The notes below the pieces were generated by a model. That model searched no databases and was not told the origin of the DNA. It saw only the letters and a list, made by a program, of their open reading frames with translations. A DNA stretch of 43,996 nt from a virus. Shown here piece after piece: positions 15,669 through 41,630 of the stretch (within the stretch, counting starts at the first letter, position 1; the number at the start of each line of letters is the position of its first letter). The position numbers and the translations under genes were made by a program. Location: the IMG/VR virus record IMGVR_UViG_3300042400_000887, positions 1 through 43,996 of that record; one strand, given 5' to 3'.

Positions 15669-17384
15669 ATGCCATTCAATTCTAACCCAGAAAAACAGTT
15701 GGAGGATGCGGCATATGATTTCTTTCATTCGTCGCACGAAGCAATTTATACGGCTGATTTAGACGGTTTAATCCTAGCGTGTAACGCCAGATTAACATTG
15801 CTTACAGGTTATTCAACAGAAGAATTAATCGGTAGCCATACTAGAATGCTTAAATCGGGTATCTACGATAGCGAATTCTATAGGATTATGTGGGATTCAA
15901 TCAAAGAATATGGATTCTGGCACGGTCAGATAACTAATAGACGAAAAGACGGTTCATTCTATACCGTCATTACCACTATCACTTCTGTATATGATGCAGA
16001 CGGGACACCAATTCGATACTTATCGGTTGGTAGCGATATCACACAAATAATTGAAAATAAAAATCAGTTGGAATATTCCGCTTATTATGATAGTCTAACA
16101 GGTATACCCAATCGATTATTGTTATTGGATAGAATTAAACAATCAATTTCCTATTCAAACAGAAACAAAACTTTCGTTGCAATTCTATACATTGATTTGG
16201 ATGGATTCAAAGACATCAATGATAATCTAGGACATGATGTTGGCGATGAATTCCTGAAAGAAATCAGTCAGCGCATGAAATCAATACTCAGGGAATCTGA
16301 TACCATTGCCAGATTGGGCGGCGATGAATTTGTTATCGTATTGAACAATCTAACCGATAAAAAAGATTGTGAAGTACCCGCTAAAAAGATATTACAAATC
16401 TGTTCATCGCCAATAGAAATTGATGGTATATTACTTCAGACATCAGCCAGCATTGGTATCAGTTTTCATCCTGCAGAACCCTATGCAGTAGAAGCGGATG
16501 CATTGATTAGACAAGCTGATCAAAGTATGTACATTTCCAAGATGCAAGGCAAAAATCAATACCATATCTATGATAAGATGGAAGACGATCCAATTACCAC
16601 CAGACAGGAAATGATTGATCAGATTCATCCTTCTTTACAACGAGGTGATTTCTTTCTGTGCTATCAGCCAAAGATTAATATGATCGCGGGTGATTTGATT
16701 GGCGTAGAAGCATTGCTCAGATGGAAACACCCTACTCGCGGTATACTTGCACCAATGGAGTTTTTAAACATTATACAAAAGACGCCGATTGGTGTACAAG
16801 TATCCTGTTGGGTTATAAAGGAAGCATTGCGACAATCTTCAGTCTGGAAAGAAGATGGGTTGTATATACCCATTAGCGTTAATTTAGATCCCGTTGTATT
16901 GAGCCAATGCGATTTTGTTGATAAATTGAATACTATAATCCATCAACGCCCAAATTTTAACCCAGGCGATATTTCGTTTGAAATCCTCGAATCATCAATC
17001 ATAGAAGATAATAAAAGAGTATCTGAAATCATTGACCAATGCAAAGAAATGGGTATTACATTTGGGTTAGACGATTTTGGTACGGGATATTCCTCATTAT
17101 CCCACATCAGAAATCTTTCGATTGATCATATCAAAATTGATAAAAGTTTTGTTATGAATTTAATCCACAACCCAATCGATAGGGTTATAGTGGAAAGTAT
17201 CATCAATCTATCTAACGCATTGAATCTAACTGTTATTGCCGAAGGTGTAGAAACAGCGGAACAAGGCAGAGAACTGATTAAAATGGGATGCACGTATGCC
17301 CAAGGGTACTACATATCAAAACCAATCCTACCCGAGAAAATTCCGTTTTGGCTACGAGAATGGAAACTTTCGTCTTATTTTTGA
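15669..17384 (+). CDS. PAS-GGDEF-EAL cyclic-di-GMP enzyme
   Basis: A 571-residue soluble protein with no membrane segment. A PAS/PAC sensor (about 12-128) is followed by a GGDEF diguanylate cyclase domain (about 135-300) and an EAL phosphodiesterase domain (about 315-565). GGDEF is intact (217-221). An inhibitory RxxD site (R208-D211) lies exactly five residues before it. EAL is intact (347-349), as are DDFGTGYSS, IKIDKSF and AEGVET, so both activities look possible. Such proteins set intracellular c-di-GMP, which controls motility versus biofilm in bacteria. A complete one in a T4-like genome is unusual. A late promoter core precedes it. The PAS ligand is unknown. Confidence 0.95.
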   Translation: MPFNSNPEKQLEDAAYDFFHSSHEAIYTADLDGLILACNARLTLLTGYSTEELIGSHTRMLKSGIYDSEFYRIMWDSIKEYGFWHGQITNRRKDGSFYTVITTITSVYDADGTPIRYLSVGSDITQIIENKNQLEYSAYYDSLTGIPNRLLLLDRIKQSISYSNRNKTFVAILYIDLDGFKDINDNLGHDVGDEFLKEISQRMKSILRESDTIARLGGDEFVIVLNNLTDKKDCEVPAKKILQICSSPIEIDGILLQTSASIGISFHPAEPYAVEADALIRQADQSMYISKMQGKNQYHIYDKMEDDPITTRQEMIDQIHPSLQRGDFFLCYQPKINMIAGDLIGVEALLRWKHPTRGILAPMEFLNIIQKTPIGVQVSCWVIKEALRQSSVWKEDGLYIPISVNLDPVVLSQCDFVDKLNTIIHQRPNFNPGDISFEILESSIIEDNKRVSEIIDQCKEMGITFGLDDFGTGYSSLSHIRNLSIDHIKIDKSFVMNLIHNPIDRVIVESIINLSNALNLTVIAEGVETAEQGRELIKMGCTYAQGYYISKPILPEKIPFWLREWKLSSYF

Positions 17385-29762: not shown

Positions 29763-30218
29763 ATGACAACACAACGTATCGCATTTGGTCCACACTTCAA
29801 TAACTATCTTGGTATTGATTCATTAATTAGAGACATGGAGCGTATAGCTTCATTACCCCAACAAGAGAAATATCCGCCGTATAACACAATTGAGTTAGAG
29901 GATAACGAATTTCTTGTCGAGTTGGCAATTGCAGGATTCTCCATTGATGATTTATCAGTTGTTCTGGAGGATGGCAAATTAATCATTTCTGGTGATAAAT
30001 CACAGAAATCTGATGATACTGTAAAATATCTACACAGAGGTATTAGCACCAAATCGTTCTCAAAAACGATTCCGGTAGTTGATACTGTAGTAGTTAATAG
30101 AGCAGAACACATTGATGGTATCTTGCGTATTTACTTGGAGAACATTATTCCTGAGCATCGCAAACCGAAACGGATTACAATCAATAATTATGTTGAACCT
30201 GTTTTATTGGCTGAATAA
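29763..30218 (+). CDS. hsp20: Small heat shock protein Hsp20 (IbpA-like)
   Basis: Holdase chaperone that keeps unfolding proteins soluble. The 151-residue protein has the alpha-crystallin domain. Examples are PPYNTIELEDNEFLVELAI and GFSIDDLSVVLEDGKLIISG, the IbpA-type signature YLHRGISTKSFSKTIPVVD, then ILRIYLENIIPEHRKPKRI. An I-x-I/V-like C-terminal tail is less clear (EPVLLAE). Hsp20 genes are common in T4-like aquatic phages and may aid capsid assembly or stress survival. Its leader looks like an RNA thermometer. Confidence 0.95.
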   Translation: MTTQRIAFGPHFNNYLGIDSLIRDMERIASLPQQEKYPPYNTIELEDNEFLVELAIAGFSIDDLSVVLEDGKLIISGDKSQKSDDTVKYLHRGISTKSFSKTIPVVDTVVVNRAEHIDGILRIYLENIIPEHRKPKRITINNYVEPVLLAE

Positions 30219-30596: not shown

Positions 30597-31379
30597 ATGA
30601 TTACTAAAGAACATATTAAAGCAATTTGTCCAAATAATAAAAACCCAGAGCAAATTGCAGAAGCATTAAACCATGTATTACCTGAATACGACATCGCGTC
30701 TAAAGAACAAGTCGCGTGTTTTATTGCACAAACTGCCCATGAGTCAGGTGAATACAATTGTTTAAAAGAAAACCTAAACTATTCAGCTGATGGTTTATGT
30801 CGAGTATGGCCGAAACGTTTTCCATCGAAGGATGCTGCCGCGCCCTATAACCGCAACCCTGAAAAGATTGCCAATAAAGTCTACTGCGACAGAATGGGTA
30901 ATGGCTCAGAAGCATCCGGTGATGGGTTTAAGTTTCGTGGACGTGGTGTGATTCAGCTTACGGGTAAAGACAACTATTCTAAATTTGCCAAATCAATTGA
31001 TAAGTCGTTGGATGAAGCAGTTGCATTATGCGAAACGCTTGAAGGTGCAATTATTTCTGGTTGTTATTTCTGGCAAGCAAATAAACTAGACCGATTTGTA
31101 CAGAAAAAAGATTTCGTTGGATTGACAAAAGCCATTAATGGCGGAACGCATGGTTTAGATGATAGAACCAACAAATATAAAAAAGCATTGGCTGTATTGG
31201 ATTTTGATGTATTAGAGAAACCATCAAAACCTTCGCCAGAACCAGTTAAAGTTGAAGAATCTACAGAAGAACCCGATTACGCAGATTTGGCGTTAAAATA
31301 TGCCAATGAAGTATTTGATGACATCAGTAAAGGCGTTGATGATGCATTAAGTTCTATTACTAAATTTTTCCACGATTAA
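30597..31379 (+). CDS. GH19-type endolysin
   Basis: Cell-wall hydrolase for lysis. The GH19 (chitinase/lysozyme) catalytic domain spans about residues 5-200 of 260: FIAQTAHESGEY contains the catalytic Glu (E49), LNYSADGLCRVWPKRF is the substrate-loop region, and FKFRGRGVIQLTGKDNY (111-127) is the classic motif. The C-terminal 55 residues are a Pro/Glu linker and an amphipathic helix (KYANEVFDDISKGVDDALSS), unusual for GH19 and possibly a wall- or membrane-contact tail. No signal peptide, so it should need a holin, which is found at 34221-34532. Confidence 0.93.
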   Translation: MITKEHIKAICPNNKNPEQIAEALNHVLPEYDIASKEQVACFIAQTAHESGEYNCLKENLNYSADGLCRVWPKRFPSKDAAAPYNRNPEKIANKVYCDRMGNGSEASGDGFKFRGRGVIQLTGKDNYSKFAKSIDKSLDEAVALCETLEGAIISGCYFWQANKLDRFVQKKDFVGLTKAINGGTHGLDDRTNKYKKALAVLDFDVLEKPSKPSPEPVKVEESTEEPDYADLALKYANEVFDDISKGVDDALSSITKFFHD

Positions 31380-31427: not shown

Positions 31428-31580
31428 ATGAAACAAAAAAAATTAATTAAAAAAATATATTCTGCTTGTTTAGATAATGATATAGAAAAACAAACAGAAC
31501 TAAAATTAAAACAGTATAAAAAGATTCTTAAACGCAAAGAAAAGAATAAACCATTCAATAATAAATGGACTGTAATTTAG
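31428..31580 (+). CDS. Small basic protein, 50 residues
   Basis: Starts at ATG 31428 behind AAGGGAC; 50 residues, about 40% Lys/Arg (MKQKKLIKKIYSACLDN and KQYKKILKRKEKNK). It overlaps the cyclase start at 31565 by 16 bases, or by one base if the cyclase begins at GTG 31580, so the two are translated as a pair. Function unknown; nucleic-acid or membrane-surface binding is possible from charge alone. Confidence 0.6.
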   Translation: MKQKKLIKKIYSACLDNDIEKQTELKLKQYKKILKRKEKNKPFNNKWTVI

Positions 31581-33637
31581 TGAAAAAAATAGTATTATCG
31601 CCTTGGTTGGCATTATTAACATTAAGTTTAATTATTGGATTGAGAGTATCTGATCCTGATTTTATACAGAGTATTAGACTTAGATATTTTGATACTCTAA
31701 TTCTGTCTCAACCAATCAAAGAAGATAGCCAAGTTGCCATTGTTAATATAGATGATGAGTCTATACAGAAATATGGTCAATTCCCGTTTCCCCGCGATGT
31801 TTATTCAAAAATAATTACCGACTTATACGACCATGGTGCTGGTCTTGTTGTTTTTAATATTTTCACACCCGACAAAGATAGATTTGGTAAAGATGCAGTA
31901 TTCAAAGATACGTTACAGAAATTTCCTGTTATCATTCCACAAGTTGGTACTAATGATAATCTTGATTTTGGTATCCCTTTCAACCCAGGCGTTGCCGAGA
32001 TTGGTGAATCCGCGAGATTATTCGCACCGAGTTATCGAACAATACAACCTAGTATCTACAGAGAAACAATTGGCGGGATCGGAGTTATCAACACCTTGCC
32101 AGAGATTGATGGCGTTGTTAGACGAATGCCAATGCTGGTCACAGCAAATGATGTCCTGTACCCTTCAATCGCACTTGAAACGCTCAGAGTTGCTTCAGGT
32201 GATGTCAGCTTTCAAGTTAAGTCCAATGAATCTGGAATTGAAGCAGTACGAATACCACAATATGGAAAAATTGACACGGATGAATTCGGTAGAATCTGGA
32301 TTGATTGGTCACGCGAACCCAAACAATATTCTCTCCAGCATATACCAGAATCCTTCGATGGAAAGATTGTCATTGTTGGACTTTCAGCAAGAGGACTTAA
32401 TAACCCTGTTGGAACAGCAAGAGGCGGAAGATTTCCACATGACGTTCAGGGTGTCGTTTTAGAAACTATCATCAGTAACGCTAATATTGCTAGACCTGAT
32501 TGGTCGACTATTGCTGAAATTGGATTTACGCTACTATTAAGTATTATTTCATTATTATTAATTAGGTGGAAATATGGGTTTATACCTGTTATTGGAAGTA
32601 TTGCCTCTATTCATTTTGGTGCTAGTTATATTTTTAACAATTACCATTACCTTCTGGATGCTACGATTCCTATTCTGGGTATTTTTCTGGTCTATAGTCA
32701 TAGTTTTACCGTCAAATTTGTTACCGAACTAAATGCTAAATTACAAATAAAAAAACAATTTGGCGGGTACTTATCGCCGATTATGGTAGAACGATTACAG
32801 AAGAATCCTGAATTAATTAAATTGGGCGGCGAACGCAAAGAATTGTCTATTGTTATGACGGATCTCAGAGGATTTACGACATTGGGAGAATCGTTTGGCG
32901 AAGACGTTGAAGGGTTAACCTCTATTATGAATGATTACATGACCGCTATTTCAGAACCAGTATTAAAGAACGAAGGTTGTATCATAAAATTTATCGGCGA
33001 TGCTTCGCTCCATGTACACGGCGCGCCATTAGATGACAATCAACACCATTACAATGCGGTTAGAACGGGGTTAGCGATGTTAGATGCAGCGGAAGAATTC
33101 AATAAAGAATTAGAAGCAAAAGGTAAACCAAGAGTAGGTATGGGCGTTGGCGTTAATGCCGGACAAACTCTAATTGGTAACATTGGTTCTAAAACAAGAT
33201 TTGGGTATGATGTATTAGGAGATAGCGTGAGCACAGCTGCGCGACTTGAAGGGCAGACTAAACCATACGGTGTTAAAATTATTATCAGCGAATCAGTTGC
33301 TAAGGAAGTTTCTGATTACTATTTGACGTTAGAACTAGACATCGTTGCAGTCAAAGGGAAATCAATCGGTACAAGGATTTACACAGTGTTACCAATAACG
33401 GACGCTAATGGAGGACTTGACTATCTGTTAGCAGAAAAACAACATAACATTATGCTTGATTTATATCGTTCGCAAAGATGGATAGAAGCATCAATTATGT
33501 GCCACAAATTGATCGGCGAATTTGATGGTAGTATGGACGCTTATTACGAAATGTTAATTCATAGAATAGGCGAATATCAGCAAGATAACAAATTCCCTAA
33601 AGATTGGGATGGTACTTATATTAGTAAAACAAAATAA
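31565..33637 (+). CDS. CHASE2-domain class III nucleotide cyclase
   Basis: A 690-residue membrane signalling enzyme. TM1 (about 10-27) leads to a periplasmic CHASE2 sensor (about 35-310), then three TM helices (about 317-334, 338-357, 366-382), then a cytoplasmic class III cyclase domain (about 425-610). Metal ligands D433 (MTDLRGFTTLGE) and D479 (KFIGDA) are present. The adenine-selecting pair K475 and D549 fits adenylate cyclase. The transition-state Arg (R560 in AARLEG) is present, but the usual Asn is Ser (S556; GDSVSTAAR), so activity may be reduced or altered. A short C-terminal helical region follows. Host-type signalling genes of this size are rare in phages. Confidence 0.93.
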   Translation: MDCNLVKKIVLSPWLALLTLSLIIGLRVSDPDFIQSIRLRYFDTLILSQPIKEDSQVAIVNIDDESIQKYGQFPFPRDVYSKIITDLYDHGAGLVVFNIFTPDKDRFGKDAVFKDTLQKFPVIIPQVGTNDNLDFGIPFNPGVAEIGESARLFAPSYRTIQPSIYRETIGGIGVINTLPEIDGVVRRMPMLVTANDVLYPSIALETLRVASGDVSFQVKSNESGIEAVRIPQYGKIDTDEFGRIWIDWSREPKQYSLQHIPESFDGKIVIVGLSARGLNNPVGTARGGRFPHDVQGVVLETIISNANIARPDWSTIAEIGFTLLLSIISLLLIRWKYGFIPVIGSIASIHFGASYIFNNYHYLLDATIPILGIFLVYSHSFTVKFVTELNAKLQIKKQFGGYLSPIMVERLQKNPELIKLGGERKELSIVMTDLRGFTTLGESFGEDVEGLTSIMNDYMTAISEPVLKNEGCIIKFIGDASLHVHGAPLDDNQHHYNAVRTGLAMLDAAEEFNKELEAKGKPRVGMGVGVNAGQTLIGNIGSKTRFGYDVLGDSVSTAARLEGQTKPYGVKIIISESVAKEVSDYYLTLELDIVAVKGKSIGTRIYTVLPITDANGGLDYLLAEKQHNIMLDLYRSQRWIEASIMCHKLIGEFDGSMDAYYEMLIHRIGEYQQDNKFPKDWDGTYISKTK

Positions 33638-34220: not shown

Positions 34221-34532
34221 TTACTTCTTGAATGCTGTTACGCCAAGAATGGCGCCGAATGCTAAATGCATCATGCCACCGCCTTGTAATGTAACACTTT
34301 GATATGCATCAATGTTTTGACCTGGATTCAAATACTGTAATACGTTATAGATTACAGGACCAATTACGAAATCAAAAATGTTGATGATCAAGTACCCTAT
34401 TCCCATCATCGGTTTCCAGGTTCTATCCATAAAATCTCCATTTTGTATAGATTGTTCAATCTGTTCTTCAACCACTTCGCTTAAATCAACATCCTTTTTA
34501 ACTCGCGTTCTTCTCGCCTTTACTTCTGCCAT
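34221..34532 (-). CDS. Holin (3-TM, GTA-holin-like)
   Basis: A 103-residue protein. After a charged N-terminus (MAEVKARRTRVKKDVDL) and an amphipathic helix comes DRTWKPMMGIGYLIINIFDF, then a second hydrophobic span, then LQGGGMMHLAFGAILGVTAF. The W(K/R)PMM...FDF and GGG(M/L)xHxAFGAILGV motifs are those of the holins of T4-like aquatic phages, placed in the 3-TM gene-transfer-agent holin family. It would permeabilise the inner membrane to release the endolysin at 30597. It is transcribed opposite to its neighbours, with its own TATAAATA late promoter. Confidence 0.8.
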   Translation of the reverse strand: MAEVKARRTRVKKDVDLSEVVEEQIEQSIQNGDFMDRTWKPMMGIGYLIINIFDFVIGPVIYNVLQYLNPGQNIDAYQSVTLQGGGMMHLAFGAILGVTAFKK

Positions 34533-34732: not shown

Positions 34733-35530
34733 ATGCCAGCTCCATTAACAATGAGTTCAGTTGTTTTACAATCTATCAACTCAACAAAAGAAGCAACAAA
34801 TCGTGTACAAACTGAATTGACCACAGGCAAGAGAACTCTTGATGCTGGTGAACAAGGTGTCGTAACTCGTTTGTCTTCTCAAGTAAATGGTTATGCCGCT
34901 GCACAAAATAACATTCAGAAATCACAAAACGTTATCAATGTAGCACAAACAGGTCTTTCAGCTATTTCAGATATTCTGTCGCAAATGAAAGATTTGGCGA
35001 ATAAAACTAACGACAATACTATGTCGGATGCTGATAAAACTAAATTGAATCAAACTTTTCAATCTCTATTGAAACAGGTTGACGATTTAGCGTCATCTAC
35101 GCAGGTTGACGGCGTTAGCGTATTGTCAAGTTCAGCAACTGATTTAAAGGTACAAACTGGTTTGACTTCAACTGATCAAATTACAGTGACTGCACAAAAA
35201 TCAGACACTACAACATTAGGTATCAACACTCTTGATATCAGTGCCACCGGCGATGCTGCTGCTGCAGTTGATGCGCTACAAACTGCGATTGATTCTGTTT
35301 CGTCAAGTCAATCAAGTTTAGCTGCTGATAAAATCGGTTTATCTGCGAGAAATAAAACTGTTCAGTCTATTTCTAGCAATCTGGAGGATACAATTTCTTC
35401 GATAGAAAAACCAAATGCTGAGCAACTTCAAATGGATTTACAAAAGTTGAACAATCAGCAATCTATTAATTATTATTTGATTAATCAGATGAATCAACAA
35501 GCACAATCAATGTTGACAATCTTCCGTTAA
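34733..35530 (+). CDS. Flagellin-like protein
   Basis: A 265-residue protein with the D0/D1 architecture of flagellins. The N-terminal helices include INSTKEATNRVQTELTTGKR and NVINVAQTGLSAISDILSQM, with the hallmark QxGLSAISDIL and an LANKTNDNT turn. There is a short beta middle and C-terminal helices with SLAADKIGLSARNKTVQSIS and QQAQSMLTIFR. It lacks D2/D3 and canonical flagellin SGLRIN and LL-R termini, so it is divergent. Outer domains absent, no signal peptide. It might be exported by the host flagellar system, jam it, or be a virion protein. ATG 34733 follows AAAGGTGA. A FliS/FlaF-like gene follows. Confidence 0.82.
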   Translation: MPAPLTMSSVVLQSINSTKEATNRVQTELTTGKRTLDAGEQGVVTRLSSQVNGYAAAQNNIQKSQNVINVAQTGLSAISDILSQMKDLANKTNDNTMSDADKTKLNQTFQSLLKQVDDLASSTQVDGVSVLSSSATDLKVQTGLTSTDQITVTAQKSDTTTLGINTLDISATGDAAAAVDALQTAIDSVSSSQSSLAADKIGLSARNKTVQSISSNLEDTISSIEKPNAEQLQMDLQKLNNQQSINYYLINQMNQQAQSMLTIFR

Positions 35531-35583: not shown

Positions 35584-35946
35584 ATGAATACTAGAAAAGC
35601 ATTAAACGTATATGCAGAGATTGATAGTAACCTTTCGGGCGCATCATTCGAGAAGAAGTGGTTTGAATCTGTAATCATGGTACTACAACGAGTACAGAAC
35701 GGTTATTATAATCCGGTCGAATCGCATATCAAATTGATTGAAGTGTGCGATGGGTTAGGTTGGATCCAAGAGAACTTAAATGAAAAATTGAGTTCACAAC
35801 ACAGAACATTATTGAAAAGCATCTATAGCACTGCTATTCAAATTATCAATGGCGCAATCGCCACCAAGAACTTCCAGTATTTGGAAATTGTCGTCTCCTC
35901 TTTAAGAACTGTAATAGAACCTTACAATCAGCAAAATAATTCTTGA
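35584..35946 (+). CDS. Flagellin-chaperone-like protein (FliS/FlaF type)
   Basis: A 120-residue all-helical protein directly after the flagellin-like gene. The N-terminal KALNVYAEIDSNLSGASFE, followed by VIMVLQRVQNG, a LGWIQENLNEKL helix and LEIVVSSLRTVIEPY, follow the helix pattern of flagellin chaperones. These are FliS (AYQQVD...) and the alphaproteobacterial FlaF (SPRELEA...LWTIFQ). Both are about 120 residues. Similarity is by pattern only, and context is the main support. It would bind the C-terminus of the neighbouring flagellin-like protein. Confidence 0.5.
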   Translation: MNTRKALNVYAEIDSNLSGASFEKKWFESVIMVLQRVQNGYYNPVESHIKLIEVCDGLGWIQENLNEKLSSQHRTLLKSIYSTAIQIINGAIATKNFQYLEIVVSSLRTVIEPYNQQNNS

Positions 35947-37087: not shown

Positions 37088-37549
37088 CTAATTACCTTGC
37101 GTTACAGATATCGGCGCGCACCCACCAACGGTAGAACAATTAAAATTGATTGAATAATATTGACTGGAATTGCCAGATTGGGTTAAATTTACCTCAACTG
37201 GCGTTCCGGATAATGAAATAATTGCGGTATGGTCGCCAATACCTTGTTGTAATGTATTAACAGACTTATTACTTCCCGATAACGTTACGTTCAATGTATG
37301 ATTACCGGAATCTTTCTGTTGTGCTATTACAGAGTTATTGCTACCATTATTAGTAACATCGATCTGCTTTGTGCCTGTACCCATTTCCTCTAAATCATAA
37401 TAATTATAATTACCATTGGTATAAGCGTTAACAGATTTATTTGTGTTACCTTCTTGCGTAACAACTGTTTCATTATATGCGCCAATTTGTTCGATGTATA
37501 CATCTGATGCATAAACATTGAAACTAATTAATAATAATATCCATTTCAT
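37088..37549 (-). CDS. Curlin-repeat secreted protein (CsgA/B-like) 2
   Basis: A 153-residue secreted protein. The signal peptide MKWILLLISFNVYA is followed by curlin repeats with Q-x4-N-x5-Q spacing, for example YIEQIGAYNETVVTQEGNTN, then N/G/T/S-rich strands (SNNSVIAQQKDSGNHTLNV; GSNKSVNTLQQGIGDHTAI). Curlins stack as a beta-solenoid amyloid on the cell surface. Two Cys near the C-terminus (NCSTVGGC) are uncommon in curlins. It is the last gene of the operon, and its ATG overlaps the FecR-protein stop. Confidence 0.82.
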   Translation of the reverse strand: MKWILLLISFNVYASDVYIEQIGAYNETVVTQEGNTNKSVNAYTNGNYNYYDLEEMGTGTKQIDVTNNGSNNSVIAQQKDSGNHTLNVTLSGSNKSVNTLQQGIGDHTAIISLSGTPVEVNLTQSGNSSQYYSINFNCSTVGGCAPISVTQGN

Positions 37550-38634
37550 TTTTGTTTCAATACTCCATTATTTTGTTTTATATTAATAATATTCCCACCT
37601 GGACTACCATCACCAATTAATATTGATGCTGGTACATCATCTTGGATAATTGTAATCAGACTATTAGAATTGTATCCTTGAGTTTTGACTTCGGAATAAT
37701 GTTCCACTCCTGATACCCTAAACGCGATACCAGAACCCTTTAATTGGGTTTCATTAGTATCAGGTCTCTGCCACAATACACAGACATTAGTTGTGGGATT
37801 GCAGTTGGTTTTATTGGCATAATCAATCATCTGTAATAATCTAGCATCTTCGGTTTCATTCAAACTATTGGCAATTTTACCCGCCATGCGTCTAGATGCA
37901 TCCGCGTCATCGAATTCTGCATCTTGTTCTTGTTTGGTCTTAGATGATGCCTTTACTGCCTTCTGTACTTCTGCTGGCTGAACAATGATCAAATGATTAC
38001 CAATATTCCCTTCGACTGTATTGATAATAGCGGGTATTGTCGGTAATCTAGTTGCACTTTGTACATAAGTTGCCTGAAATGCTTGGTCTAATGATACTTT
38101 ACCTGCCAGAGTTTCAACATCAATCTTACCGACTTTACAAGTATTTTCTTCCAACTCATATTCCTTTACTTTTTCATCGGGTTTACAGCTCGGTAATAAT
38201 ACGATTAATGATTGACCTGTTTCGTCGATTGTCATTGTGAAATCGGTACCACGAACAGCAATTGTAGCAGTTGGCGTTTGTATACCGACTTGTTGTGGAT
38301 TATTCTTAGCAATTTGACCCGATGCATATCTGACAGTACCCATTGCCACTTTTAATACCAATTTACCTGCATCACTTTTCTTAGTATCAAACACAAAATC
38401 ATCAATCAACAATTTACTATTCTCGGTGATTTTCGCCTTTGTATCATCTTTGAATACGATATTACCAACACAATTACCTGTGATATAAGTATCCATACTT
38501 TCAATGGTTGAACCTTTATCGCCCGGTAATTTTTGTTTATTTCGTTCTATCTGACATCCTGTGCCTTTAGATTCAACCACAGAACCAATATCTGCTATCA
38601 CATTAAGTGATACCAATATCAACAACCATTTCAT
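37546..38634 (-). CDS. Secreted FecR-domain protein
   Basis: A 362-residue protein with signal peptide MKWLLILVSLNVIA, almost identical in layout to that of the next curlin gene. Residues about 25-190 form a FecR-type beta domain (FVFDTKKSDAGKLVLKVAMG, VRYASG, TPTATIAVRGTDFTMTI). The distal part has charged helices and a final strand region (NIINIKQNNGVLKQ) rather like a curlin repeat. FecR domains occur in cell-surface sensing and in secreted matrix proteins. Here, within the curli operon, it may anchor or nucleate fibres. Five or more Cys are visible. Confidence 0.8.
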   Translation of the reverse strand: MKWLLILVSLNVIADIGSVVESKGTGCQIERNKQKLPGDKGSTIESMDTYITGNCVGNIVFKDDTKAKITENSKLLIDDFVFDTKKSDAGKLVLKVAMGTVRYASGQIAKNNPQQVGIQTPTATIAVRGTDFTMTIDETGQSLIVLLPSCKPDEKVKEYELEENTCKVGKIDVETLAGKVSLDQAFQATYVQSATRLPTIPAIINTVEGNIGNHLIIVQPAEVQKAVKASSKTKQEQDAEFDDADASRRMAGKIANSLNETEDARLLQMIDYANKTNCNPTTNVCVLWQRPDTNETQLKGSGIAFRVSGVEHYSEVKTQGYNSNSLITIIQDDVPASILIGDGSPGGNIINIKQNNGVLKQK

Positions 38635-39413
38635 TATCGTGCAATGGCAGTTTGTGGGTTAACAATCGCACTAGAACTGGTTCTGACAGTAACTGTATTA
38701 TGGTCACCTGTAGTTCTAATATCGACGGTAGTATCATTAGTGCCTTGCTGTTGCACTATATTGGAGTTATAATCACCCGCAATGTATTGTTTCAAATCAT
38801 GACCGAATGCACCAGCAGAATCTAATTGTTCATCAATTAGAATATTAGTATTACCCGTAATTGCTATATTGGATTTACCATTAGAACTTTTTAAATTATT
38901 GGTAATCTGATTTGAATTGCCCGTAGTAACAATTGTGCTGGTAATATCGCTCCCCAGTAATGTCTGTAGTATTAAATTAGTATTACCGGTAATTGTTTCT
39001 GAGATAATATTTCTAAGATTATTTGTATTAGCATCACCTAATAATAACTTACTCATATTGTCATTACCTGACACTGCACTAGTATATTGGTTATTACCGC
39101 CTTTTATATTATACTGCGCCCAGTTATTAGTACCATGTTGGGTGATGGTAGCTGTATTTGAACTACCGTTAATTGACCCATAATTCAAAGAACTTGGAGC
39201 ATCAGGCGTTAAAGTGGTAATATTATCAGAATTTGATACGCTGATATTACCATTAGAACCACCCACATTATTAGTTCCGCCAACCTGTTCAATAGTAATC
39301 GTATTAGTGTTTCCGACTTGTTCTATGTAAACAAGATTTGGATTTGTGGCGTTGTCTGCGTTTATGTTTTGACTTATCACAAGTAGCATAATCAAACTTA
39401 TTAGATTTTTCAT
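38634..39413 (-). CDS. Curlin-repeat secreted protein (CsgA/B-like) 1
   Basis: A 259-residue protein with signal peptide MKNLISLIMLLVISQNINA and about ten imperfect repeats rich in G-(N/D)-x-N, such as YIEQVGNTNTITIEQVGGTN with exact Q-x4-N-x5-Q spacing, and TGNTNLILQTLLG. This is the beta-solenoid amyloid pattern of CsgA/CsgB. It starts within the last 110 bases of csgG in a different frame, and its stop overlaps the next ATG. It could be the main fibre subunit or nucleator. Confidence 0.86.
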   Translation of the reverse strand: MKNLISLIMLLVISQNINADNATNPNLVYIEQVGNTNTITIEQVGGTNNVGGSNGNISVSNSDNITTLTPDAPSSLNYGSINGSSNTATITQHGTNNWAQYNIKGGNNQYTSAVSGNDNMSKLLLGDANTNNLRNIISETITGNTNLILQTLLGSDITSTIVTTGNSNQITNNLKSSNGKSNIAITGNTNILIDEQLDSAGAFGHDLKQYIAGDYNSNIVQQQGTNDTTVDIRTTGDHNTVTVRTSSSAIVNPQTAIAR

Positions 39414-40305
39414 CTATAATTTCCTTGTTTAAATTATCATCTTGAAGTTTTACATGCTCTTGGGTTTCAATAACTTCCTTTTCTTTCATTATAATTGGCG
39501 TCATAGATTCAGTTTTATATGACCAATGACCTTTTCTAATACCTTCTTTAATAGTTTCCAACACTGCAGATTGGATCGCTTTATTGGTGGCACGATTGAT
39601 ACTTTCATTAATAGAGCCGCCAATCTCTGCTTCAACTGACATAGTACCGGCATCCATGAATTTCAATACACCAATTTTATCCAAATAACTCAGCACAGTT
39701 TTGGTAATTGTAACTGATGTTAATACTTCGCCTGTCGTTACCGATACTGTTCTGAGATTAATAGTCACTGTATCGCTTTGATATTGAGTTTCGCCGCCAA
39801 TACCAAAAAATCGAACACCAGCGCCGCCTGTTACTGTATTTGAATCGTAACCCGTAATCGAACCTTCAAAAATGATGCCAGCAAATATCATGGGTGGTAG
39901 ATGTTGGGCATCTTTACCTTGATACTGTTCCCGCATTTGTCGAATCATCTGACGTTCTTTGATTAGATTTTCTAACCCAACTCGTTCAACCACAGTAAAC
40001 CATCGACCATCACCCACATCTTGTAATGCTTTGATTAGGTAACCTTCTCCGCCTTGCGTAACAGCAGAACTCAATGAAGCAATATTAGGTATTGATTTGC
40101 GCTGACCCGTTTTATCTTGAAATGCATACACGCCAACGGGTATTGGTCCACCCGATGGTGGTAATAGTACATTTTCTTCTTTATGCAAAAAGGTTGATTT
40201 TTCTACGGCTGGATCATCAAATTGTTCGCCAGTAATCAATTTGTGGATAGCACTACTAGTAGCACATCCTTGTAGTAATAAAAACAATAAAAATAATCGT
40301 TTCAT
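39304..40305 (-). CDS. csgG: Curli secretion pore lipoprotein CsgG-like
   Basis: Outer-membrane nonameric channel that exports curli subunits. A lipoprotein signal ends LLQGC (C14). The conserved CsgG domain runs to about residue 265: PVGVYAFQDKTGQRKSI, WFTVVERVGLENLIKERQMI, AGIIFEGSITGYDSN, then RTVSVTTGEVLTSVTITKTV. E. coli CsgG is 277 residues. This one is 333, adding about 65 residues whose last 36 (Lys/Arg/His-rich) overlap the curlin gene in another frame. It lacks CsgE in the operon. Ribosome site AAAGGAT. Confidence 0.94.
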   Translation of the reverse strand: MKRLFLLFLLLQGCATSSAIHKLITGEQFDDPAVEKSTFLHKEENVLLPPSGGPIPVGVYAFQDKTGQRKSIPNIASLSSAVTQGGEGYLIKALQDVGDGRWFTVVERVGLENLIKERQMIRQMREQYQGKDAQHLPPMIFAGIIFEGSITGYDSNTVTGGAGVRFFGIGGETQYQSDTVTINLRTVSVTTGEVLTSVTITKTVLSYLDKIGVLKFMDAGTMSVEAEIGGSINESINRATNKAIQSAVLETIKEGIRKGHWSYKTESMTPIIMKEKEVIETQEHVKLQDDNLNKEIIDEKSNKFDYATCDKSKHKRRQRHKSKSCLHRTSRKH

Positions 40306-40314
40306 TTTAATCCT

Positions 40315-40785
40315 TTAAAATGCGAAAGAACCTGCTGGCACTTTCATAGTAGTAGTCTGGGATAGATTACTGTTATTGGTAATATCAATGATGATCAATC
40401 CAGCGTCAGAACCAGCACCCAAAGACCAAGATACTGAATTTCCACCTAAATCTGGTATAGAACCACAGACTATGCCAGTAACTGTACAAGTAGCACCATC
40501 AGAAAACATAGAATCGGTCAATTGTTTTGCTAACTGCGAATAGATTCTTGATTCAAGATTAGCTAGAAATTTCGCTTGTGGGGTATTCAATGCTGCTGAT
40601 TCTGCCTCAGCTTTTATAGCATCGGTTGCTGCTTTATTCTTATCAATGGCTTGAGTTTCCAATTGATTGATGGTTAGAACGTGAGAACTGTAACCTGATC
40701 CAGAGAATGAAGGCGAATTGAATGTGTGCGTTAATTCTGCAGAATGAACAGAAGTGCTTAATAATAGAAGTAGCCAATATCTCAT
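40315..40785 (-). CDS. csgF: Curli assembly factor CsgF-like
   Basis: A 156-residue secreted protein. Signal peptide MRYWLLLLLSTSVHSA, then ELTHTFNSPSFSGSGYSSHV, matching the CsgF N-terminus (TFxNPxFGG) that plugs into the CsgG pore and links it to the fibre. A helical FLANLESRIYSQLAKQL segment and a beta C-terminal part (SDAGLIIIDITNN; TTTMKVPAGSFAF) follow as in CsgF. Two Cys (CTVTGIVC) are extra. It is coupled to the upstream membrane-protein gene by ATGA and precedes csgG. Confidence 0.85.
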   Translation of the reverse strand: MRYWLLLLLSTSVHSAELTHTFNSPSFSGSGYSSHVLTINQLETQAIDKNKAATDAIKAEAESAALNTPQAKFLANLESRIYSQLAKQLTDSMFSDGATCTVTGIVCGSIPDLGGNSVSWSLGAGSDAGLIIIDITNNSNLSQTTTMKVPAGSFAF

Positions 40786-41042
40786 TTCTTATTCTCCTTT
40801 TGAGCATTCTCGCGCATCTGCAAAACAGTATTGAGTTTTGCTGTAAGTCGAAGTAAATCGTTGTCGAGTAACCGTATTCTATCAATAAGCGTAATCAATT
40901 CTTTTGACGCTTCGCCGAGAACTGGGTTAATTTCATTAATGGTAAAATCCCAAACATGTTTGACCATTTTCAGCATAAAAAATGATGAAACTATTGGAAA
41001 ACCATACTTTGAAATAAGTTCTGATAACTGAGTAATGTCCAT
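40782..41042 (-). CDS. Small single-TM protein (BhlA/UviB-like) 3
   Basis: An 86-residue protein from ATG 41042; the longer frame from 41096 overlaps the previous gene. One hydrophobic segment (YGFPIVSSFFMLKMVKHVW) lies near the N-terminus and is followed by a long coiled coil (ITLIDRIRLLDNDLLRLTAK). This is the layout of BhlA/UviB-type holin-like proteins. It is the third of three similar genes. Confidence 0.65.
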   Translation of the reverse strand: MDITQLSELISKYGFPIVSSFFMLKMVKHVWDFTINEINPVLGEASKELITLIDRIRLLDNDLLRLTAKLNTVLQMRENAQKENKK

Positions 41043-41046
41043 AAAT

Positions 41047-41331
41047 TTAATCTCTGCGGCAATCGTTCTTTCCGTCTGATCTAGCAATCCTGTCAAGATC
41101 AGGTCTCAATCCCATAACAGATGATATTGTTACGTCAATTTTAATCAACTCATGGGAACATGTTTTAACACGATTCTCTAATGCCATTACAATAGACGCT
41201 AATGTTCTGACTGAAGTGATTATGTCGCCAAGCACAAACTTTAATGCCGTAAAAATAAACCCGCCAGCAGCACAACTTCCTAATATTGGCGTCACGACAT
41301 CAGAAAAAAACTTTACGTATTCTTGATCCAT
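41047..41331 (-). CDS. Small single-TM protein (BhlA/UviB-like) 2
   Basis: A 94-residue protein with MDQEYVKFFSDVVTPILGSC then a hydrophobic GGFIFTALKFVLG segment and a coiled C-terminal region (LASIVMALENRVKTCSHELI). It has the same layout as the flanking proteins at 41331 and 40782, so the three look like tandem duplicates. Its ATG overlaps the previous stop (TAATG). May form inner-membrane assemblies for the operon. Confidence 0.65.
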   Translation of the reverse strand: MDQEYVKFFSDVVTPILGSCAAGGFIFTALKFVLGDIITSVRTLASIVMALENRVKTCSHELIKIDVTISSVMGLRPDLDRIARSDGKNDCRRD

Positions 41332-41630
41332 TACGATGCCTTATTCATTACTTGGTGAACTTGATGGTGTATTTTTTCTGGGAGTGGTTCAACGTACAAC
41401 GATTTTGAGACTAGTTGGTCGAGTTCAAGAACATCTATATTCATCTGTTGAACTCTACCATCCATCGATTTAATCAATCCAGTAATTTTTTTAATTGATT
41501 TGACGATTGATCCTAGCACTAAGTTCACTGCTTGCATGATGAACCATCCGCACACGACTGCTAATGCGATTGGGAATCCACATGCTTCAACTAACTGGAA
41601 GAAATCAAAATTAGGTATACCAATGTCCAT
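41331..41630 (-). CDS. Small single-TM protein (BhlA/UviB-like) 1
   Basis: First gene of the minus-strand operon, 99 residues. A hydrophobic helix (CGFPIALAVVCGWFIMQAV) sits after a short acidic N-terminus (MDIGIPNFDFFQLVEA), followed by a long amphipathic coiled coil. The G-F-P-I-A motif and single TM are typical of BhlA/UviB bacteriocin/holin-like proteins. The start lies 17 bases after copy 3 of the 63-bp repeat. Role with curli genes unproven. Confidence 0.65.
   Translation of the reverse strand: MDIGIPNFDFFQLVEACGFPIALAVVCGWFIMQAVNLVLGSIVKSIKKITGLIKSMDGRVQQMNIDVLELDQLVSKSLYVEPLPEKIHHQVHQVMNKAS

Follow-up and report, generated by a model that had tools for sequence, protein, structure and literature searches.

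A phage-borne curli-type gene set and the modular second curlin-repeat protein of its relatives

The phage curli operon itself is already known from two cultured phages, HTVC008M and Melnitz. The annotation of HTVC008M calls gp016 CsgB-like, that of Melnitz lists two curlin-repeat proteins and a FecR protein, and Wittmers et al. 2022 described the series CsgF, CsgG, CsgA/B, FecR, second CsgA/B and cyclase, in which the cyclase is a frequent, not a universal, neighbor of the operon (PMC9599517). A preliminary description of the DNA analyzed here held that fibre subunits and a FecR protein in one operon go further than the literature; in view of these earlier records, this claim falls. Since 2020 the question has stood whether the curli genes of phages give rise to fibres, and to what end.

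The window, the whole stretch of 43,996 nucleotides analyzed here, is a 44-kb linear fragment (IMG/VR record IMGVR_UViG_3300042400_000887), and genes may therefore lie beyond its ends. Its assignment to a T4-like phage was confirmed: the portal matches phrog_213 (E=1.5e-198) and has Melnitz as its closest isolate (56%), and profile searches identified T4-type portal, sheath, terminase and clamp loader genes, as in a relative of the Kyanoviridae. The window has an endolysin gene of its own and a weak holin candidate. By eye, FliS or FlaF had seemed possible beside the flagellin, but neither gave a match at E<=10. An ORF check recovered all eight of the minus-strand genes described earlier between 37088 and 41630, joined either by ATGA/TAATG overlaps or by short gaps, and their order (TM-CsgF-CsgG-curlin-FecR-curlin) is that of the phage type VIII secretion system (T8SS). 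Sigma-70-like sites occur at or below chance, with no recognizable promoter above chance driving the operon, and no T4 late motif lies near it. The genes are as follows.

41331..41630, minus strand: TM1, first operon gene, small membrane protein of 99 aa (phrog_18771, E=1.7e-16)
41047..41331, minus strand: TM2, paralogue of 94 aa (phrog_18771, E=5.8e-22)
40782..41042, minus strand: TM3, paralogue of 86 aa (phrog_18771, 1.1e-19; holin phrog_4898, 4.8e-5)
40315..40785, minus strand: CsgF-like exported protein, 156 aa (PF10614, 2.7e-7, above cut-off)
39304..40305, minus strand: CsgG-like outer-membrane lipoprotein pore, 333 aa (PF03783, 2.9e-49)
38634..39413, minus strand: Cur1, candidate curlin-repeat fibre subunit, 259 aa (PF07012, 8.8e-6, above cut-off)
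37546..38634, minus strand: FecR-domain exported protein, 362 aa (PF04773, 2.1e-8, above cut-off)
37088..37549, minus strand: Cur2, short headless curlin-repeat protein, 153 aa (NCBIfam CsgB model, 1.4e-5)
31565..33637, plus strand: CHASE2-adenylate/guanylate cyclase, 690 aa (PF05226, 2.9e-38; PF00211, 7.1e-19)

These family matches uphold the earlier reading of a near-complete curli locus. The CsgF assignment, named then as one on which this reading depended, is supported by the PF10614 match. The gene overlaps TM3 by ATGA and adjoins csgG in all relatives; the N-terminal region of the protein is conserved in alignment, and its profile weakly matches solved CsgF over profile positions 4-48. 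The CsgG profile matches solved CsgG at 6.8e-66. The CsgG lipobox, previously recognized by eye, reads LLLQG-C14, and all 16 aligned sequences share C14; a C-terminal extension of the gene runs 110 nt into the Cur1 signal sequence. As had been proposed, CsgE is missing, with no match to this gate protein at E<=10 in the window, itself a fragment; CsgE is an accessory component that is missing too from the published phage operons (PMC9599517). Family scans of the window showed no CsgC or CsgD.

Both subunit candidates have the signal peptides and curlin repeats of type VIII secretion substrates. The Cur1 profile finds solved curlin 8c50 (4e-8), and the G-x2-N motif is strongly enriched in the protein (16 observed, 3.7 in shuffled sequences; 0 of 2000). 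The predicted model of Cur1 (pLDDT 77, pTM 0.75) is an all-beta ladder with some 19 strands, and thus not the non-solenoid fold that would have told against a fibre subunit. A Foldseek search with this model gave no PDB hit below 1e-3; its weak hits include many beta-helical proteins. Cur2 in the window is below the Pfam cut-off (0.018) and is recognized by the CsgB model and through its homologues, 27 of the 45 proteins in the alignment matching Curlin_rpt. The Q-x4-N-x5-Q spacing put forward earlier as evidence did not hold up: the exact motif occurs once in Cur1 and not at all in Cur2, which is not significant. Since this motif is too rare, the strong evidence for curlin repeats comes from the profiles and the G-x2-N periodicity.

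A survey of related phages found the gene set in 64 further viral contigs. The order CsgF-CsgG-Cur1-FecR-Cur2 is complete in 56 of them, the other eight being cut by the sequence end, and a cyclase often lies just 3' of Cur2. The module also occurs on phage contigs of 219-372 kb, far bigger than those in the descriptions cited here. Median dN/dS is 0.10-0.11 for CsgF, CsgG, Cur1 and FecR and reaches 0.20 in the cyclase and 0.27 in Cur2. The low dN/dS and the fixed order indicate that the module is not decaying cargo. In a phylogenetic tree, phage CsgG occupies its own side (support 100/99), and the window CsgG belongs to a distinct, deep clade with 46 viral rows (100/100). It is hardly credible that the genes are transient host-derived cargo without function in the phage: the Pelagibacter and OM43 hosts are without a curli system (PMC7029224, PMC9004378), which would suit such a view, but it is opposed by purifying selection and fixed order across 64 viral contigs, by the well-supported placement of phage CsgG and by metatranscript evidence (PMC9599517). 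An alphaproteobacterial origin has been published; our scan of CsgG loci kept the best 80. None of 75 bacterial csgG loci had a phage-type FecR, small membrane proteins or a cyclase within 9 kb or less. A bacterial source of the whole module was rejected, the only candidates being five AT-rich MAG contigs (L068, L069, L070, L081 and L106). Because the tree places these with phage CsgG, and because several neighboring genes in L069 match phage families (no structural gene matched), they are probably phage contigs.

The FecR-domain protein has a signal peptide, a FecR beta domain, a long helix and a C-terminal five-stranded beta repeat ending GGNIINIKQNNG in the AlphaFold2 (AF2) model. Its six cysteines are paired. 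The predicted C-terminal strands (residues 302-354) follow curlin spacing and end in a curlin-like motif; N348, I352 and Q354 are invariant in alignments of 43-45 sequences. The protein shares the Pfam FecR domain with the FecR/PupR cell-surface signaling proteins, and the AF2 model matches PupR (6ovk; Foldseek E 3e-4). In contrast to those proteins, it is exported by a signal peptide, the N-terminal signal segment leading into the beta domain; it has no second transmembrane segment and no cytoplasmic anti-sigma part, and it carries C-terminal curlin-like repeats. It therefore cannot alone be a classical FecR regulator, and from sequence and model it resembles an exported, structural protein more than a regulator. 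This argues that the published iron-regulator reading of FecR needs revision. We consider it very improbable that CsgG serves as an open outer-membrane pore for nutrient or cofactor uptake, with incidental subunits and an iron-responsive FecR. The uptake idea and the FecR name come from PMC9599517 and PMC7029224, and the missing CsgE gate would fit an open pore, but Cur1 is under no weaker constraint than CsgG (dN/dS 0.11) and the FecR protein lacks regulator architecture. The window cyclase does not directly follow the second curlin gene; it lies ~3.5 kb outside the operon on the opposite strand and is a homologue of the cyclase found after Cur2 in relatives.

The three small membrane proteins precede csgF. 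TM1 has one transmembrane segment (hydropathy peak near residue 21) and a coiled coil, and aligns with viral relatives. The ATG of TM2 overlaps the stop of TM1 (TAATG), and among the phage collection TM2 is found only in the HTVC008M and Melnitz records. TM3 most likely starts at ATG 41042 (86 aa), the listed TTG 41096 being less likely. No HisKA or HATPase domain was found by Pfam in the 86-99 aa window proteins or in the HTVC008M or Melnitz copies, and the Melnitz protein, like TM3, weakly matches holin phrog_4898 (E=1.1e-4). The proteins that the literature calls "histidine kinases" and places before csgF thus seem to be small membrane proteins of holin-like type, which argues for revising that annotation. 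They resemble phrog_4898 proteins in size, N-terminal transmembrane segment, coiled coil and weak profile match, and differ from them in forming sets of two to three paralogues that accompany curli or cyclase genes. We rejected the idea that they are curli-only genes, as 24 of 80 TM loci had no curli gene nearby; 14 of these 24 had a cyclase, several are short contigs, and two of 12 re-searched records hold CsgG elsewhere. The holin-like matches, directly upstream of csgF, would fit a CsgG-CsgF pore that times lysis or egress in a pinholin- or secretin-like manner, with the TMs as holins and the curlin proteins secondary, as put forward for Melnitz (PMC9004378). That proposal presumed no fibre genes, whereas Melnitz and nearly all complete relatives hold two curlin proteins and FecR in order. 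We regard it as distinctly unlikely, given also the window's separate endolysin and weak holin candidate, a CsgG pore too small for virions (PMC7029224) and binding-type heads without an obvious role in lysis.

These heads are found on Cur2, and what is new here is that Cur2 in relatives is, by sequence, modular, with varying heads on a conserved tail. In relatives it measures 140-759 aa, and most of these versions bear a binding-type head on the N-terminal side of the curlin tail. Single-linkage clustering merged all heads, and classes were therefore taken from domain-specific searches (n=46): 20 proteins have F5/8 type C, 10 have PA14, 12 bear an unassigned head and 4 are headless. HTVC008M gp018, annotated "hypothetical", is a PA14 head with curlin repeats; Cur2 of Melnitz and of the window are headless. 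Heads differ between phages whose CsgG is 96% identical, as expected for binding specificity with fast turnover. Such interchangeable sugar-binding-type heads support a function in attaching cells or surfaces to one another. Of the roles suggested in the preliminary description, adhesion or aggregation is thus strengthened, while egress through CsgG is poorly supported, because fibre-like subunits are kept, the endolysin is separate and the pore is too small. A real fibre might instead benefit the phage by superinfection exclusion or surface masking rather than new-host capture, as suggested in PMC9599517. Fast-changing heads could also mean an arms race, but lectin-type heads are not obviously needed for masking, and we hold this view to be unlikely, if worth keeping in mind.

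Taken together, the phage curli module is, as far as its genes indicate, a compact set through which an infected cell could export putative sticky amyloid fibres. We judge it somewhat probable that the operon encodes a type VIII (curli-type) secretion module, carried by the phage, with which the infected cell displays an adhesive amyloid-like fibre. CsgG would assemble as the outer-membrane lipoprotein pore, capped on the outside by CsgF. Cur1, the presumed main subunit, and Cur2, a second subunit usually bearing a glycan-binding-type head in relatives, would pass by Sec to the periplasm and out via CsgG, and polymerize into a beta-solenoid fibre. The exported FecR protein may nucleate, cap or anchor the fibre through its C-terminal repeats, with its FecR domain perhaps reporting to the CHASE2-cyclase, and the small membrane proteins would act at the inner membrane. 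Adhesion to neighbors or surfaces could keep new hosts near or competitors off. Counting against a fibre are the missing CsgE, the headless window Cur2 below the Pfam cut-off, the lack of a confident Foldseek match for Cur1 and the lack of an above-chance promoter. Buchholz et al. 2022 (PMC9004378) infected OM43 cells with Melnitz and did not observe clumping in the culture conditions used, although Melnitz Cur2 is headless.

More tentatively, it is possible, though we would not presume it, that this is a dedicated, horizontally exchanged adhesive-fibre system with a conserved core and tail, heads swapped as fast as receptor-binding proteins, an exported FecR-curlin protein that nucleates or anchors the fibre, and a CHASE2 cyclase serving as inner-membrane sensor. 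If true, it would turn infected cells into sticky traps of phage-chosen specificity. The domain architecture offers a concrete, testable answer to what phage curli genes do, namely displayed adhesins, and cultured phages provide the contrast: PA14-headed gp018 in HTVC008M against headless Cur2 in Melnitz, the phage in which clumping was sought. The inferred regulation has itself leaned on the two annotations, histidine kinase and iron regulator, that our analysis argues need revision.

In comparison with bacterial curli (E. coli csgBAC-csgDEFG; Pseudoalteromonas, Massilia, Flavobacterium), the CsgG-CsgF pore pair and curlin-repeat subunits are common to both, whereas no CsgE was found in the phage window. 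The T8SS of pelagiphages and OM43 phages (HTVC008M, Melnitz; PMC7029224, PMC9599517, PMC9004378) has the same genes in the same order, plus the CHASE2-cyclase. The window differs from these modules in its three membrane proteins, its cyclase outside the operon and its short headless Cur2, and its CsgG, only 40-45% identical to those of HTVC008M and Melnitz, falls in a deep clade separate from them.

The curli operon proposed from the sequence proved genuine. All eight minus-strand genes between 37088 and 41630 were confirmed, joined by overlaps or short gaps. Pfam matches above the curated cut-offs identified CsgG (2.9e-49), CsgF (2.7e-7), a FecR domain (2.1e-8) and, in the product of 38634-39413 (Cur1), curlin repeats (8.8e-6). 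The second curlin protein (Cur2, 37088-37549) fell below the Pfam threshold (0.018) but matched the NCBIfam CsgB model (1.4e-5), and 27 of 45 proteins in an alignment of its homologues match Curlin_rpt. Cur1 contains 16 copies of G-x2-N, the turn motif of the curlin repeat, where 3.7 are expected; none of 2000 shuffles reached 16. The exact Q-x4-N-x5-Q spacing put forward in the preliminary description was not significantly enriched, while the lack of CsgE that it reported was borne out by a search of the window. The CsgG frame extends 110 nt into Cur1, in a different frame, across the Cur1 signal sequence (39304-39413, minus strand); this overlap spans 17 nt in HTVC008M and does not occur in Melnitz, two cultured phages with a published curli set.

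The record is a linear virus fragment of 43,996 bp with 35.6% G+C. Its description as T4-like is upheld by a T4-type terminase, sheath, tube, portal, protease, scaffold and major head protein, and the helicase, SbcCD, clamp and clamp loader are also T4-type. The closest isolate by portal is Melnitz (55.6%), a phage infecting OM43 methylotrophs. The window further encodes:

15669-17384, plus strand: PAS-GGDEF-EAL protein whose GGDEF, EAL and DDFGTGYSSL motifs are intact
29763-30218, plus strand: Hsp20-type small heat-shock protein (phrog_432, 2.9e-33), near the endolysin and cyclase
30597-31379, plus strand: endolysin, a clear match (phrog_181, 5.6e-69), outside the curli operon
31565-33637, plus strand, opposite to the operon: CHASE2-cyclase, homologous to the cyclase that follows Cur2 in relatives and missing from the preliminary description
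34221-34532, minus strand: holin-like gene, a weak match (phrog_3427, 0.013), outside the curli operon
34733-35530, plus strand: full-length flagellin-like gene (PF00669, 9.4e-19)
35584-35946, plus strand: 120-residue helical-looking protein, after the flagellin-like gene

The top PDB matches of the flagellin-like product are flagellins, FljK, FljL, FljM and FljN types among them (7e-17); the gene had no match in the phage collection, in 45 curli-phage records or in the viral contigs. The protein encoded after it resembles a flagellin chaperone by eye, and was rejected as one when FliS and FlaF profiles gave no match. The PAS-GGDEF-EAL protein, a possible c-di-GMP enzyme judging by its motifs, shares a genome with the curli, cyclase and flagellin genes; GGDEF domains were absent from the 45 curli-phage records searched.

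With the window CsgG as query, we found 64 viral contigs (62-80% identity). CsgF, CsgG, Cur1, FecR and Cur2 are complete and in the same order in 56 of these, the other 8 being cut by the sequence end. Membrane-protein genes lie upstream or close by, at times on the opposite strand, and a cyclase often lies downstream. Median dN/dS between closely related pairs was 0.10 for CsgF, 0.11 for CsgG, Cur1 and FecR, 0.27 for Cur2 and 0.20 for the cyclase; these low values indicate that the curli module is maintained. In the CsgG tree, one side of a branch (100/99) holds the phage sequences together with five contigs from bacterial MAGs; the window belongs to a clade comprising 46 viral rows (100/100), separate from HTVC008M and Melnitz. 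Several of the relatives come from contigs 219-372 kb long, with portals that are only distantly T4-like (E ~1e-105 to 1e-111, compared with 1.5e-198 for the window), suggesting that the module has been exchanged between phage lineages.

Among the best 80 bacterial CsgG loci, 75 have no phage-type FecR, small membrane proteins or cyclase within up to 9 kb. The remaining 5, with phage-type curli modules, are the AT-rich MAG contigs L068, L069, L070, L081 and L106, which are likely to be misbinned phage. One MAG has four CsgG copies, each on its own contig, a pattern suggestive of phage contigs having been binned with bacteria. Some genes neighbouring CsgG in L069, from the MAG Water_Bin34, match phage families; no phage structural gene was found among them.

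Cur2 ranges from 140 to 759 residues in relatives, where the C-terminal curlin tail is conserved and the N-terminal head varies. Pfam assigned F5/8 type C domains to 15-18 of 45 Cur2 proteins and PA14 to 9; home-made profiles divided 46 into 20 F5/8C, 10 PA14, 12 other and 4 headless. The Cur2 of the window has no head, nor do those of L014, L019 and Melnitz. Heads differ between L051 and L052, whose CsgG proteins are 96% identical; the corresponding figure for L032 and L038 is 93%. HTVC008M gp018, deposited as hypothetical, combines PA14 with curlin repeats. PA14 domains are not mentioned in PMC9599517 or PMC9004378, and our search, confined to papers outside subscription and preprint sources, found no report of such heads on phage curlins. 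Cur2 is a candidate modular adhesin.

The FecR protein has a signal sequence at its start and no further hydrophobic segment, and is predicted to be exported. It has six cysteines; with the exception of one member of a pair, all show no or almost no variation among relatives. In the predicted model (mean pLDDT 72; pTM 0.48, leaving the domain arrangement uncertain), the FecR domain resembles PupR (6ovk, E=3e-4) and, across 62 columns, the solved "cell surface anchoring domain" 5ix9 (E 0.037, rmsd 1.1). It is followed by a long helix and then by C-terminal strands (302-308, 312-318, 325-331, 334-340 and 348-354) spaced near the curlin period of 22-23 residues. The C-terminus reads G-N-x-V-x-I-K-Q-N, and N348, I352 and Q354 are invariant, HTVC008M and Melnitz included. 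We infer that a structural role, as nucleator, cap or anchor, fits better than an iron-responsive regulator. FecR and CHASE2 may plausibly form a sensing pair, since a FecR-like gene lies within ~1.5 kb at 5 of 29 alphaproteobacterial CHASE2 loci (Pfam confirmed 4 of the 4 tested).

The small membrane proteins at the operon start (TM1, TM2 and TM3; 86-99 residues) belong to a single family, phrog_18771, and Pfam found no kinase domain in the three. TM3 weakly matches a holin family, and TM2 matches only curli-bearing phages within the phage collection. Of 80 family members located in viral contigs, 56 have curli genes nearby and another 14 have the cyclase nearby.

Display of a putative adhesive fibre by infected cells best explains these observations, a reading that we consider somewhat more probable than not. 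The most interesting additions are the swappable Cur2 heads and the revised readings of FecR and the membrane proteins. The curli set itself is known in kind. In Zaragoza-Solas et al. 2020 (PMC7029224), CsgF/CsgG were reported together with associated genes, and the authors suggested "sibling capture"; Buchholz et al. 2022 (PMC9004378) regarded the operon as incomplete and suggested that it acts in lysis. The set described by Wittmers et al. 2022 (PMC9599517) in podo- and myophages comprises CsgF, CsgG, CsgA/B, FecR, a second CsgA/B and an adenylate cyclase, with one or two "histidine kinases" ahead of it. The set is also present, partially annotated, in the HTVC008M and Melnitz records, so the combination of fibre subunits with FecR, previously taken as a step beyond the literature, is no advance. 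The "histidine kinase" position before csgF in published sets is the place of the small membrane proteins here, and the window operon is a genuine, well conserved phage curli module, a divergent new example of the published type.
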